A stretch of DNA of 40,919 nucleotides from Candidatus Methylomirabilota bacterium (GTDB lineage Bacteria; Methylomirabilota; Methylomirabilia; Methylomirabilales; CSP1-5): positions 1 to 40,919 of the forward strand of contig JAPUFX010000075.1 of NCBI GenBank assembly GCA_027293415.1, written 5' to 3'. The position numbers and the translations under genes were made by a program. Position 1 is the first letter of the stretch. Every line of letters begins with the position of its first letter. A model generated the notes under the pieces. It saw nothing but the letters and a program-made list of their open reading frames with translations. It ran no database searches and was not told where the DNA came from. This document shows, piece by piece, positions 18,731 through 29,091 of the stretch.

Positions 18731-19465
18731 TTATCGTCGAGCGTACACCTCCGCGGCGAGCACGCGCGGATTCTTCGTCCGGGCATTCTGCGTCGTTCTC
18801 AGAATAATAGCTTCGGAAAATCCAACCTCTCGAAACTCTTCAAGGAAGGCACCGCCTTCCTTGGCTCCCGCAATTCAGGCAAACCAGTTCGCCTCGCTGT
18901 CCCGAATCTCTGGAGGAAGCGGTTCACGCAATATGAGTTCGGCCGTGTAGACAGCTCCACCCTGTCGCACGACTCGTGCAAGTTCGTGGAAAATTTCACA
19001 CCTCGCCGGATTCAGGTTAAAGATGCCATTCACCAAGGCAATATCAATCGAGCCACCTTCAATGGGTAGCTTCTCTGCATCGGCTTGGTTGTATTCCACG
19101 TTGTCGATCCCAACTTGTGCTGCCGCTTGGCGGGCACGCGCGAGCATGGCATCACTGAAGTCAACACCGATGGTCTTTCCCTGCGGACCTGTCCGCCGCG
19201 CAGCAATCAAAGAATCGAGCCCTGCCCCGCACCCCAGGTCGAGGACAGTGGCACCCACCGGGATATCCGCAAAGACGGCCACACTCGACACCCCGGAAAA
19301 AGCATCAACAGAAGCGGATGGCAAACGGGTAAGTAGATCCTGCGGGTAGCCTACGCTTTCCGCGAAACGCCGCCCCATTGGAAACGGATGTTCATCCTGC
19401 GGTCTTACCGCAGCCGCAGAATAGGCCCGCCGAACGCCATCCCGGAGTTGCTGTGGCCTGTCCAT
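18731..19465 (-). CDS. Probable selenoprotein: ArsM-like SAM-dependent methyltransferase with in-frame TGA (Sec197)
   Basis: A class I SAM methyltransferase with LDLGCGAGLDS (SAM-binding motif I, residues 75-85), GVDFSDAMLARA, an acidic DAEKLP motif and VNGIFNLNP. This order is characteristic of arsenite methyltransferases (ArsM). At codon 197 (18877-18875) an in-frame TGA replaces the family's conserved cysteine: EANWFA-[TGA]-IAGA corresponds to ArsM ...C-(I/V)-(A/S)-GA, where Cys binds the metalloid. Translation then continues for 47 codons (FLEEFREVGFSEAIILR, NARTKNPRVLAAEV) to TAA at 18731, giving 244 residues with no frameshift. A SECIS-like hairpin follows the TGA, and selA is in this window. 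The start is the ATG at 19465 behind AGGAGG and a good sigma70 promoter. A nonsense mutation is the alternative but does not explain the hairpin or the preserved tail. The substrate (arsenite or another metalloid/thiol) is inferred. Confidence 0.85.
18841..18863 (-). promoter_or_regulatory. Bacterial SECIS-like hairpin for the methyltransferase TGA
   Basis: On the leftward mRNA, CAAGGAAGGC and GCCTTCCTTG form a perfect 10-bp stem (18841-18850 with 18854-18863) closed by a GGU loop. The loop begins 21 bases after the TGA at 18875-18877, inside the range seen for bacterial SECIS elements, which carry G/GU in the apical loop for SelB. It is within coding sequence, as bacterial SECIS elements are. 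No T-tract follows, so it is not a terminator. Confidence 0.75.
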
Positions 19466-19526
19466 GTCAGTCGATCCTCCTGTCGCTGAACGCCGCGCTG
19501 CCCTTATGAGGAAAATAGATCCGATG

Positions 19527-19627: not shown

Positions 19628-20416
19628 CTAAAGGATCAATTGGCGGCGGAGCTGATGGGCTGGAGTGAAGTACCGCTTGACCGCGAGGTGGAGAAAGAGG
19701 AAGGAACTCAAGGCTACGGCGCACGTGATCATGAGCATGACGACGACCTGATACTTTACTGCGATGAGGGGGGAGGTGCCGGAGAGGATTTGCCCGGTCA
19801 TCATCCCGGGAAGTTGGACGATCCCGACCGCCAACATGGCGTTGATCGTCGGGATCATGGCCGCGCGGAGGGCTGAACGGTAGAGATCGCGGGTTGCCTC
19901 CATTCCGGAGAATCCGAGGGCGAGGAGCGTCTCCACCTCCTCTACCCGGCTTCGCAGCTCGCCTTGAAATCGTTCCCCTGCCAACGCCGCGCCGGTCATG
20001 GCGTTGCCGAGAATCATGCCGCCGATGGGGATGAGATAACGGGGGTCGTACCACGGCTCGACCTGAATCACCACTTGGGTCACGAAGCCGAGCGTGATGG
20101 CGCTGCCGACGACCAGCGACGCCACCGCGATCCAGCGAGCGCCCGGCAACGGATGTTCTAATCTGCCGACGGCGATCCAGGACGCGGCAGAGAGCATCAC
20201 GATGAGGGTCAGGAGGACGAGTTCCCACCGATCCGAGGCGAAGAGATAGATGAGGAAGTAGCCCACGAGAAAGAGCTGGAGGAAGGTCCGGGCGGTCGCG
20301 ATGATGAGATCGCGCTCGAGGCCAAGACGTTCCCGGTAGGAGATGGCAAGCACCAGCAGGACCAGGATCAGGGCAAGGAAGAGATGGATGATTCCCACAT
20401 CGATGATCGGCTTCAT
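19628..20416 (-). CDS. fetB: ABC transporter permease, FetB/YbbM (UPF0014) family
   Basis: A 262-residue membrane protein with about seven hydrophobic helices. It has the family-specific phrases AISYRERLGLERDLIIATARTFLQL, LIPIGGMILGNAMTGAALAGER and the cytoplasmic coupling region EVETLLALGFSGMEATRDLYRSALRAAMIPTIN. In E. coli FetAB is an inner-membrane iron exporter that protects against oxidative stress; function here is by homology. The start overlaps the stop of the ATP-binding subunit by four bases (ATGA at 20413-20416). Confidence 0.88.
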   Translation of the reverse strand: MKPIIDVGIIHLFLALILVLLVLAISYRERLGLERDLIIATARTFLQLFLVGYFLIYLFASDRWELVLLTLIVMLSAASWIAVGRLEHPLPGARWIAVASLVVGSAITLGFVTQVVIQVEPWYDPRYLIPIGGMILGNAMTGAALAGERFQGELRSRVEEVETLLALGFSGMEATRDLYRSALRAAMIPTINAMLAVGIVQLPGMMTGQILSGTSPLIAVKYQVVVMLMITCAVALSSFLFLHLAVKRYFTPAHQLRRQLIL

Positions 20417-21126
20417 CCATGCTCCTCCAGAAGCCTGGCCGCCTGTTCCGCCCCTTCTTCACGGACGATCCGGCCCCCTTCAAGAAACAGGACCCGGCCG
20501 CCCAGGCGGAGAATCAGTTCCGCTTGGTGGGTGGCGACAAGCAGCGTTAGCCCTTTGACGCGGTTGAGCTGGGTGATCGTGTCAACCACGAGGTGGAGGC
20601 TGCGCGCATCGAGGGCCGAGGTGGGCTCGTCCAACAGGAGGATCTCTGGTTCCCCCAGGAGGGATCGTGCAATGGAGAGCCGCTGCTTCTCCCCGCCGGA
20701 GAGTTCCATCGCGTTGCGATGGAGAAATGATCGATTCAGGCCTACGTCTGCCAAGGCCTGAACAAGCGTGGACTCCGAAAGCTGCCTTCCGTTCGGGCGC
20801 CGGAGGAGATTCTCTCGGATCGTTCCATGGAACATTACCGGATGCTGAAGGACCAGGGCAATCCGTCTCCTGAGCTCTAACGGATCGTAGTATTGCAAGG
20901 GCCTTTCGCGGAAGAGGATCTCGCCTTGAACGGGATCATCAAAACGGTTGAGTAGGCGGAGGAGGGCAGATTTGCCGGAGCCGGAGGGTCCGGTGATGCT
21001 GAGACATTCCCCCGCCTGCACCTGAAAGGAGACCGCTTTCAGGACCTCGCGGTGCGCATCCAGCGTATACCCGCCGGAGACCTCGCGGCATGCGAGGATC
21101 GGTTCACGCTTCCCCTCGATAGTCAT
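20413..21126 (-). CDS. fetA: ABC transporter ATP-binding protein, FetA/YbbL-like
   Basis: A ~237-residue ATPase. Walker A is GPSGSGKSALLR, the Q-loop is VLQHPVMF, the signature is LSGGEKQRLSIARSL, Walker B is ILLLDEPTSALD and the switch histidine is in VATHQAEL. The domain starts ILACREVSGGY. I placed the start at ATG 21126: the open frame continues to 21282, but that extension has no ABC features. It is the first gene of a two-gene fetA-fetB operon. By family it energises export of iron across the inner membrane. Confidence 0.88.
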   Translation of the reverse strand: MTIEGKREPILACREVSGGYTLDAHREVLKAVSFQVQAGECLSITGPSGSGKSALLRLLNRFDDPVQGEILFRERPLQYYDPLELRRRIALVLQHPVMFHGTIRENLLRRPNGRQLSESTLVQALADVGLNRSFLHRNAMELSGGEKQRLSIARSLLGEPEILLLDEPTSALDARSLHLVVDTITQLNRVKGLTLLVATHQAELILRLGGRVLFLEGGRIVREEGAEQAARLLEEHG

Positions 21127-21456
21127 GGCCTGCCACGGAAGTTTTCCGCCAAAAGGCAACACGTCGTCCACGTGTGCTACGCTTGGGCAGTCGTTAAGGT
21201 AGCATGCGCGAGATTTGTTTCGCAAGTTGACAGATGCAGATGAGCCCCATGTGAGCTTGACGGCGACTGCGACTAGATGCACGAGGGTGTTTATGGGTGA
21301 GGCAGGAATGGGGCAGGTATTTCCCGGGCGGTCAGAATTTGGGCACGGACAAGCGGGGTGTGTATCTCTAACCGTTGCAAAATAGGACTAGCACAGGGGA
21401 CCTCGCCAGTTGGCACGTTCGTTGCTAGTTTGTAAGGTGAAAGCGAGGTCGCGAAG
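21127..21456. other. Intergenic region between fetA and the small zinc-ribbon gene
   Basis: About 330 bp with no supportable gene other than weak open frames. It should carry the divergent promoters of fetAB (leftward) and the small gene (rightward). No clear consensus element was identified. Confidence 0.35.
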
Positions 21457-26429: not shown

Positions 26430-27218
26430 TTAGTGCGCCTTTGTCTTCGGGCCCTTCGATCGACTTTCCATGACCTGTTTGGCTGCCCGGGACACCGCGG
26501 CAGGGATGTTGCGATCTCTCGTGATCCCCTGGAGGTCTCGATCGGTGAGACTCGAAATGCCCAGCCCGAGCGACACGCCGACCGGGGTTTTGGGGTTATG
26601 GAGGAGACTCAAGATCGCGAGCTTGTTCGCCCGGACGCGTCTCATGTTGGCAATTGCCCGGAGGACCTGATCGGAAACATCCCGCATTTGAGCGATCATG
26701 AGGATCTCGTCATCGGTCGTCCGTGGACTGTTCACCACCTCCAAGCCAATCATCTCGTTTTGGTCCTTGATGAGGATCATGCGGGCTTCCTTATTCCCCT
26801 TCTTGGCCAGCGCCAACTTCTGCCCGACGCTCATCTCTTTGATCATCTGGAAGAGAGATTTCTTTCGCTCCCGCTCGTCCTTTGTGCTTTCGTGTAAGGT
26901 CGCGTTCACTTTCCGCCGATCCGTCTCGCTGAGGGCGGGATTCTTGAGGAGAGCATGGCCCACGACGGGATTATGGAGGAGAAAGACTCGGTCGTCCGCA
27001 AGCTCGGCCGCCAGGGAAGACGACGCCCGCTCCGCCATGAAGATCATGGCGCCCAGGGGAGTTTGGGGATTGGCCAGGAGGGGCTTCCAAACCTCCTCGT
27101 CTTCGGGAAACTGAGCCGGCAGATTCTCGAGGACCCTGGACTCGCTCTTTTCCGATTGGGCGAGGCTGATGGCCTCTTCGCGGGATACTGTAGAGGGCGT
27201 CGGATTGGAGTCGCTCAT
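26430..27218 (-). CDS. Conserved helical-repeat protein, unknown function
   Basis: A 262-residue, wholly alpha-helical, charged protein. It contains a recurring phrase N-P-x-T-P or similar at helix starts: LLANPQTPLGAMIFMAE, LLHNPVVGHALLKNPALSE, VVNSPRTTDDEILMIAQM, LLHNPKTPVGVSLGL. These resemble HEAT or leucine-rich-variant repeats of about 35-40 residues. No catalytic motif or signal peptide. From memory, similar proteins occur near replication and translation genes in deltaproteobacteria, but I cannot name the family. Its start overlaps the selA stop by four bases, and tmk follows two bases after it, so it belongs to the selA-metG operon. Confidence 0.75.
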   Translation of the reverse strand: MSDSNPTPSTVSREEAISLAQSEKSESRVLENLPAQFPEDEEVWKPLLANPQTPLGAMIFMAERASSSLAAELADDRVFLLHNPVVGHALLKNPALSETDRRKVNATLHESTKDERERKKSLFQMIKEMSVGQKLALAKKGNKEARMILIKDQNEMIGLEVVNSPRTTDDEILMIAQMRDVSDQVLRAIANMRRVRANKLAILSLLHNPKTPVGVSLGLGISSLTDRDLQGITRDRNIPAAVSRAAKQVMESRSKGPKTKAH

Positions 27219-28651
27219 AGCTCCACCGTGTTTGCAAGGATCGGGCCGACGGTCCCGATTAAAAGCCTCACCTCCTCATCCTGGACGGTCCGAAGATCGA
27301 GGAGGACCTTCTCTTCCTTGATCCGCCCCACCACGGCCGGATCTGTACGCCGCAGGGCGGCTTCGAGTCGGTGCGGGGGGTGCTGGGTCGATTGAAGCGC
27401 AACACAGTAAGTCGGGAGGCTCGCGGTGGGAAGCGCACCCCCTCCAACTTCCGACCGTTGCTCCTCCATCGTCACCCGGACTGATGGATGTGCCTGCGCT
27501 TGCAAGCCATCACGCACCCGCTCCGCCCGCTGGCGAATCTGTTCGAGGGGGCACGTGATCATCGCAAGAGTGGGAATGGTGGCGAGCCCTTTCTCCCCTT
27601 CGAGATACGCCCGGAGGGTGGCCTCGAGGGCTGCGAGCGAGAGCTTATCAATGCGGACGGCACGGGCCAGCGGGTTCTTCCGGAGGCGCTCGATCAGGGT
27701 CTTTCTCCCCACACATATTCCTGCCTGGGGTCCTCCGAGGAGTTTGTCCCCGCTGAAGGTGATCAGGTCCACACCCGTCTTCACAGCTTCTTGGACGGTT
27801 GGCTCCCCGGTGAGACCGAACGGGGTCAGATCAGTGAGGGCACCGCTCCCCATGTCCATCATTACCGGAACACCTCGCTGCCGACCTAACGTCACGAGTT
27901 CCAAGAGGGAGACCTCACTGGTGAAGCCGATGATGTGAAAGTTGCTGGGGTGGACCTTCAAGAGGAGGGCGGTCCTTTCCCCAATGGCCTCTTCGTAGTC
28001 TTTGGGGTGGGTCCGGTTGGTGGTCCCCACCTCTCGGAGGGTTCCGCCGGCTTTTCGCATCACGTCCGGGACCCGAAAGGAACCCCCGATCTCGATCAAC
28101 TCCCCCCGAGAGACGATGACCTCTCGACCTTCGGCGATTGTGTTAATGCTCAAGAGGACCGCAGCGGCGTTGTTGTTGACCGTCAGGGCCGCTTCGGTAC
28201 CGGTGAGGCGGGTGAAGAGCCCCTCCACGTGGAGCTGGCGCGAGCCCCTGGTCCCCTGCCCGAGATCGAATTCTAGGGTCGAGTAATGCTGCGCAACCTC
28301 TTGCACTCGGGCCTGGGCCTCGGGAGAAAGTGGGGCCCGGCCCAGGTTGGTATGCAGGATCACCCCGGTCGCATTGATCACGCGGCGTAAGCTTGGCCGG
28401 GCTCGGTGCAGGACCCTGAGGGATATTTCGCTGAGCAGGGTTGAGAGATCTGGCGGGGTGGTCTCTACCCCCTGACGTAGGAGGGCCAGGAGCTTCTGCC
28501 GGCATTCCTCCAGGGTCTCACGGACCGCTTCGACGACTAGCCATCGGGGATGCGCTTCAAGGATCCGCTGGACAACGGGCTCGTGGAGGACTTCGTCGAC
28601 CGAGGGAATCTGTCGAAGGAGCAGACCCGGTTGCTGCTCAGGGGTAGCCAT
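27215..28651 (-). CDS. selA: L-seryl-tRNA(Sec) selenium transferase
   Basis: A 478-residue PLP enzyme that converts Ser-tRNA(Sec) to Sec-tRNA(Sec). It begins LLRQIPSVDEVL, a typical SelA N terminus. VINATGVILHTNLGRAPL, VNNNAAAVLL, SRGELIEIGGSFRVPDVM and EVGTTNRTHPKDYEEAI are SelA-specific, and the PLP lysine is in TFSGDKLLGGPQAGICVG. I placed the start at ATG 28651 behind GAGG; upstream in-frame codons lie beyond a terminator. The stop overlaps the next gene (ATGA), coupling selA to tmk-holB-ricT-metG. Its presence shows that this organism makes selenocysteine. No selB, selD or tRNA(Sec) gene was found in the window. Confidence 0.96.
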   Translation of the reverse strand: MATPEQQPGLLLRQIPSVDEVLHEPVVQRILEAHPRWLVVEAVRETLEECRQKLLALLRQGVETTPPDLSTLLSEISLRVLHRARPSLRRVINATGVILHTNLGRAPLSPEAQARVQEVAQHYSTLEFDLGQGTRGSRQLHVEGLFTRLTGTEAALTVNNNAAAVLLSINTIAEGREVIVSRGELIEIGGSFRVPDVMRKAGGTLREVGTTNRTHPKDYEEAIGERTALLLKVHPSNFHIIGFTSEVSLLELVTLGRQRGVPVMMDMGSGALTDLTPFGLTGEPTVQEAVKTGVDLITFSGDKLLGGPQAGICVGRKTLIERLRKNPLARAVRIDKLSLAALEATLRAYLEGEKGLATIPTLAMITCPLEQIRQRAERVRDGLQAQAHPSVRVTMEEQRSEVGGGALPTASLPTYCVALQSTQHPPHRLEAALRRTDPAVVGRIKEEKVLLDLRTVQDEEVRLLIGTVGPILANTVEL

Positions 28652-28740
28652 ATACGGCCTCTTTGCAGGAAAATTGATCAGCCTTTCCATTACCATATTT
28701 TTCGGCCCCTTGCAACGCAAATTCCCGCGGGAACTGGAAA

Positions 28741-28771
28741 AACAAAAGCCACCTTCGGGTGGCTTTTGTTT
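28741..28771 (-). terminator. Rho-independent terminator between the zinc-ribbon gene and selA
   Basis: A 12-bp perfect stem (28742-28753 with 28758-28769) with a UUCG-type tetraloop (CGAA on the leftward strand) is flanked by A-rich and T-rich arms, so it can act in both directions. It ends the leftward zinc-ribbon transcript and separates it from selA, whose promoter must lie within 28652-28740. Confidence 0.85.
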
Positions 28772-28788
28772 AGGGTTGCCTCTGCCGA

Positions 28789-29091
28789 CTACGTCAATTC
28801 CCGCACCGCTCCTGCGCGCCGGACCTGGTAACAGGGACGGCAATAGACCGGCCGATCGGGCATGGGTCTGAACGGAACGGTGGTCCGTTGACCGCACTGG
28901 GAGCAGACCGTCTCGAAAACCTCCCTCTGTCCTGCGGCTAGCCCACTCCCTCTCCTCATCGATTTACAACTCTTGCATCGTTTGGGCTCGTTGGTGAACC
29001 CCTTCTGGGCGAAAAACTCCTGTTCCCCCGCGGTGAAGGCAAACTGCTTCTCACAATCTATGCATGTCAAGATCTTATCCTGAAAGGCCAT
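28789..29091 (-). CDS. Double zinc-ribbon protein
   Basis: A 100-residue protein with two four-cysteine modules. The N-terminal one (ILTCIDCEKQFAFTAGEQEFFAQKGF ... RCKSC) matches the 'probable zinc-ribbon' family zf-trcl. The C-terminal one (CSQCGQRTTVPF...VYCRPCY) is the CxxC-x17-CxxC type. Proteins of this pattern are widespread in anaerobes, with unclear function, possibly in RNA or DNA binding. It is a single gene with its own terminator. Confidence 0.82.
   Translation of the reverse strand: MAFQDKILTCIDCEKQFAFTAGEQEFFAQKGFTNEPKRCKSCKSMRRGSGLAAGQREVFETVCSQCGQRTTVPFRPMPDRPVYCRPCYQVRRAGAVRELT

Follow-up and report, generated by a model that had tools for sequence, protein, structure and literature searches.

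A predicted stand-alone selenoprotein of the ArsM methyltransferase superfamily with a one-chalcogen active site

A gene on the minus strand of a 40,919-nucleotide stretch of DNA from a Candidatus Methylomirabilota bacterium (contig JAPUFX010000075.1; hereafter the window, meaning the whole stretch) very probably encodes an ArsM-superfamily selenoprotein in which selenocysteine (Sec) 197 takes the position of Cys224 of CmArsM, the active site retains one chalcogen, and a soft acceptor would be held by a single selenium bond. Comparison with homologues strongly supports the reading of UGA-197 as a selenocysteine codon and of the gene as a genuine selenoprotein gene.

Gene product and active site

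The gene occupies positions 18731-19465 (minus strand), with an ATG at 19465, a coding part of 18734-19465 and a TAA stop at 18733-18731, and by direct reading of the sequence a ribosome-binding-site-like AGGAGG lies 10 nt ahead of the ATG (19476-19481, minus strand). The open reading frame contains only one in-frame TGA, at codon 197 (18875-18877, minus strand), which is followed by 47 more codons before TAA; read-through yields a product of 244 residues that runs ...EANWFA-U-IAGAKEGGAFLEEFREVGFSEAIILRTTQNARTKNPRVLAAEVYARR around that codon, confirming the EANWFA-U-IAGA sequence, the single TGA and the 47-codon extension reported in an initial annotation of this DNA. Standard gene callers would shorten such genes by 48 codons and leave the product without its active-site residue. 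The host assembly totals 2.75 Mb across 221 contigs, with 96.5% completeness. Directly upstream of the selenoprotein gene, at 19628-21282 (minus strand), the window carries genes for a UPF0014 membrane protein and an ABC ATPase, a pair that is FetAB-like by family and is not kept beside more distant orthologues.

Pfam places Methyltransf_31 and related families on the window protein, and the nearest NCBIfam models are ArsM_AhpD_UU (NF041537; E 7.5e-55), the methyltransferase/UXPK-star model and the arsenite methyltransferase PRK11873, each under its cut-off. An AlphaFold model (pLDDT 95.9, pTM 0.93) has a class I fold, and the solved structures that match it best are all arsenic methyltransferases, with 4fr0 first. 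As modelled, the window protein belongs to the ArsM superfamily, has the ArsM fold and is a stand-alone SAM-dependent methyltransferase of class I.

CmArsM holds As(III) by three thiolates. In an alignment with 4kw7, V59, G147 and residue 197 of the window protein fall on CmArsM Cys72, Cys174 and Cys224, respectively (CmArsM column numbers were counted from the printed alignment, and 5eg5, a C72A mutant, has A at the first column), such that the 224 position alone among the three arsenic-ligating cysteines is kept, as Sec. The Val59 codon lies at 19289-19291 (minus strand) in FSGVSS, where canonical ArsM has GCG, and the Gly147 codon at 19025-19027 (minus strand) in LVNGIFNL. When Cys and Sec forms were aligned together (alignment A2), all 16 Cys rows had cysteine at the three columns and 15 of the 16 had the N-terminal Cys pair; in the Sec rows (19/19) column 59 held V, I or L, column 147 held G and column 197 held Sec, and the Cys pair was missing. 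The same pattern, with V, L or T at 59, holds in about ten more Sec genes that come from a Chloroflexi genome, a second phylum and clades elsewhere in the same class. The Sec rows make up one side of a branch in the tree, with modest support (79/84). These alignments show Sec197 at the catalytic or substrate cysteine position of arsenite methyltransferases, and show the window protein to have a putative one-chalcogen site in which Val and Gly replace the other two arsenic thiolates. The initial annotation had put Sec at the conserved ArsM cysteine column, which the match to Cys224 bears out, and had called that residue metalloid-binding; the latter is uncertain, as two of the three arsenic-ligating cysteines are absent in all Sec forms examined.

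A Cys version of the one-chalcogen site came from a plasmid search that returned distant homologues only: four haloarchaeal plasmid proteins (L093, L094, L095 and L097) and one from Chelatococcus (L092) have V59, G147 and Cys197. Loss of the two cysteines therefore marks a subfamily whose remaining chalcogen can be either Sec or Cys. We considered and rejected the idea that Cys72 and Cys174 were lost as a consequence of gaining Sec, because the haloarchaeal V/G/C homologues have the loss without Sec.

Relation to known selenoproteins

The table of a 2026 review (PMC13188914) includes, among experimentally verified selenoproteins, a Sec "Arsenite methyltransferase, NF008823, UxxG", citing Fomenko 2007 and entered as NF008823/PRK11873 with WP_011987699.1, and the same review also lists ArsM/AhpD, ArsM/DUF2284 and methyltransferase/UXPK-star selenoproteins from Haft and Tolstoy 2025. 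Like WP_011987699.1, the window protein is a SAM methyltransferase of ArsM type whose one Sec lies in a UxxG motif (here UIAG), but it differs from the NF008823/PRK11873 family, scoring 170 bits against a cut-off of 263, and so falls short of a canonical arsenite methyltransferase by this measure. NF041537, its best NCBIfam match, aligns over profile positions 11-231 and has UxxG in the methyltransferase part, but the AhpD part (profile beyond about 231 of 345), with its further Sec, is absent from the window protein, which stops at residue 244 and reaches 186 of the 510 bits required. Searches of 9 named genomes and of 291 genomes from another phylum turned up no NF041537 member over the cut-off. 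The double selenoproteins NF041536 (ArsM/DUF2284) and NF047649 (methyltransferase/UXPK-star) likewise share a homologous methyltransferase domain and UxxG, but have a second domain, whereas the window protein has none and a single Sec. Canonical Cys ArsM proteins (CmArsM 4fr0, human AS3MT 8xt7) have the fold, the SAM motif and an acceptor at the Cys224 position in common with it, but carry Cys72 and Cys174 where the shorter window protein has Val59 and Gly147. Because UIAG fits UxxG, the kind of protein is a known one and the window clade its stand-alone, unnamed member. The initial annotation's term "new selenoprotein" thus suits the clade but not the kind, given that a Sec arsenite methyltransferase and three ArsM-type fusion selenoproteins are already known.

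The same genome holds a second ArsM-like selenoprotein gene (C90:1238-1999, L002; ELWTA-U-IGGALLE) with its own hairpin, which adjoins truncated-haemoglobin-like and GYD-like genes (domain names assigned by eye). Further Sec methyltransferase clades occur in the same class (L101-L105 and L071; ALAG-U-LAGTLAEP, AWTG-U-IAGTLTEQ), two of these genes lying side by side in one genome (G009:C241).

On balance we lean towards a broader reading, in which ArsM has a widespread sister subfamily that relies on Sec, or in some cases Cys, as its sole active-site chalcogen, has dismantled the three-thiolate arsenic site and forms a distinct class of selenoenzyme with a non-arsenite substrate. If this is true, the subfamily is misnamed wherever it is annotated as arsenite methyltransferase, and if its one-chalcogen members are not active on arsenite, metagenomic surveys of the arsenic cycle that count "arsM" may be counting some enzymes with a different role. 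The contrast between three thiolates and one selenolate in the same fold also offers a way to test what selenium does in methyl transfer.

Proposed function and alternatives

We propose that SelB, tRNA-Sec and a hairpin just 3' of the UGA decode UGA-197 as Sec, that Sec197 would hold or activate one soft acceptor via a single Se bond, and that SAM would donate the methyl group to the acceptor so bound. The acceptor might be an organoarsenical in which a single ligand position is free, or a metalloid or chalcogen species of another kind; the selenol may be reset by a thiol-redox partner resembling AhpD or OsmC. An acceptor pocket that retains one highly nucleophilic chalcogen has no three-thiolate hold on As(III), and As(III) is therefore probably not the main substrate; judging from the aligned residues, we think the name "arsenite methyltransferase" doubtful for the window enzyme.

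Hints of a redox partner come from relatives only, namely the AhpD fusion of NF041537 and the CMD/AhpD-like and OsmC genes that lie next to the haloarchaeal one-cysteine homologues. A tblastn search with the haloarchaeal proteins as queries found no AhpD, CMD or OsmC near the Sec loci, and no neighbours were conserved between orthologues within several kb. The window protein had no match in a phage collection. These relatives also bear on another reading, in which the enzyme passes the methyl group to a thiol, hydrosulfide, selenide or tellurium species, with Sec serving as a relay nucleophile or redox switch and not as a ligand for a metalloid. A single selenol at the acceptor position would suit such chemistry, as would the AhpD/CMD and OsmC thiol-redox proteins fused or neighbouring in relatives; against it, such neighbours are not common to the window clade, and we regard this reading as possible but somewhat unlikely.

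It is less probable still that the protein is an ordinary arsenite methyltransferase, serving As(III) resistance, with Sec in place of Cys at one arsenic ligand. The best PDB matches by sequence and by fold are indeed ArsM proteins, and a Sec "arsenite methyltransferase" is listed in the review (PMC13188914), but the equivalents of Cys72 and Cys174 and the N-terminal Cys pair are absent in all Sec forms, the neighbours included no recognised ars gene, and the genome separately encodes a canonical Cys ArsM (C187), which scores 352.6 bits against the 263-bit cut-off, compared with 170 for the window protein.

Evidence for selenocysteine decoding

Ten orthologues (58-97% identity) retain the TGA, and they span three phyla: the window's own class, one assembly labelled Chloroflexota and one labelled Deltaproteobacteria. 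The closest orthologue with a name, at 97%, is in Candidatus Methylomirabilis sp. MAG-BB-18. The TGA is likewise present in further relatives at 40-42% identity, and several other ArsM-like clades also have an in-frame TGA. No Cys homologue was found at 40% identity or above, and in all the more distant ones the Cys falls precisely on column 197, such that the in-frame UGA stands at a column holding Cys or Sec in homologues, as is expected of a selenoprotein. Past the TGA, dN/dS is 0.04-0.37, similar to the part ahead of it, and by this measure the tail up to the TAA is under purifying selection.

The apical loop of a bSECIS element contains G and lies about 16-37 nt 3' of the UGA. The window gene has a SECIS-like hairpin of 10 bp at 18863-18841 (minus strand; CAAGGAAGGC-GGU-GCCUUCCUUG) whose GGU loop starts 21 nt past the UGA, and which taken singly is moderately unusual (z -1.68 to -2.07). 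Among 22 Sec genes the best stem after the UGA averages 8.05 bp, while the mean for 16 Cys homologues is 4.44 bp (p=6e-7); folding energy relative to synonymous recoding has a mean z of -1.78 in Sec genes versus -0.31 in Cys homologues (p=7e-4), although both p-values count related genes as independent and therefore overstate the significance. Stem sequences differ between clades (for example GCUCUCCU-GGA-GGGAGAGU, GACACUGGC-GGA-GCCAGUGUU, GCCAGGUAG-GUC-CUACCUGGC and CCCGGAGC-GGUC-GCUCCGGG) and share their position, with a G-containing loop 17-23 nt past the UGA; differing predicted stems at one place are support for the hairpin that is free of the problem of gene kinship. A hairpin whose loop contains G is present in every Sec gene but one and absent from the Cys homologues; the exception is a 58% orthologue (L079) with an aberrant N-terminus. 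In the closest clade the peptide EGGAFL itself favours a hairpin, and several single orthologues are accordingly not unusual against synonymous recoding. Because the TGA is kept in ten orthologues and other ArsM-like clades and is followed by a 10-bp hairpin, we do not consider it a product of chance.

The host also has the machinery that bacterial selenoproteins need. A selA match (selenocysteine synthase; 616.7 bits) lies in the window itself at 27215-28897 (minus strand), and the genome holds selB (389 bits), a tRNA-Sec (selC) with anticodon UCA (75.9 bits) and selD, which has an in-frame TGA of its own at GAGUACK. Detection of selB in 84/99 relatives indicates that the Sec trait is general in the class rather than tied to the window gene; the 93%-complete assembly of the closest relative (G004) yielded no selB. 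The initial annotation had suggested looking for homologues with TGA at the same place in related genomes, which the orthologues and the 40-42% relatives now provide, and had named observations that would speak against Sec. None of these was made: close relatives do have Sec at the column and distant homologues Cys, the codon is TGA rather than TGC or TGT across at least nine separate assemblies, and selB, selC and selD are all in the genome.

Might the TGA nonetheless be a true stop, giving a truncated protein of 196 residues with a remnant frame downstream? TGA does serve as a normal stop in other window genes, but selection on the tail up to the TAA, conservation of a TGA column that is matched by Cys elsewhere, and the hairpins 3' of the UGA make this very improbable. 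A changed genetic code was rejected, as TGA is the ordinary stop in 11 of the 26 window genes checked. Errors in sequencing or assembly can be dismissed, as can a recent pseudogene, for although the compared sequences are mostly metagenome assemblies, TGA stands at the same codon in orthologues from nine or more separate assemblies, one of which (G046) has two copies.

Several loci depart from the intact form. A 78% orthologue (L025, G032:C227:523-1209) has lost some residues near its end, which reads FREATVYARR and then TAG, with the terminal YARR retained. A fragment of a window-type gene (L070:10329-10592, G016:C221) encodes the last ~80 residues with U and lies about 2 kb from an intact C90-type gene. 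In a C90-type homologue (L036, G023:C265:3425-4069), from an assembly (76% complete) in which selB was not found, TAA replaces TGA at the Sec codon and the hairpin is still present, possibly a case of decay following loss of Sec decoding.
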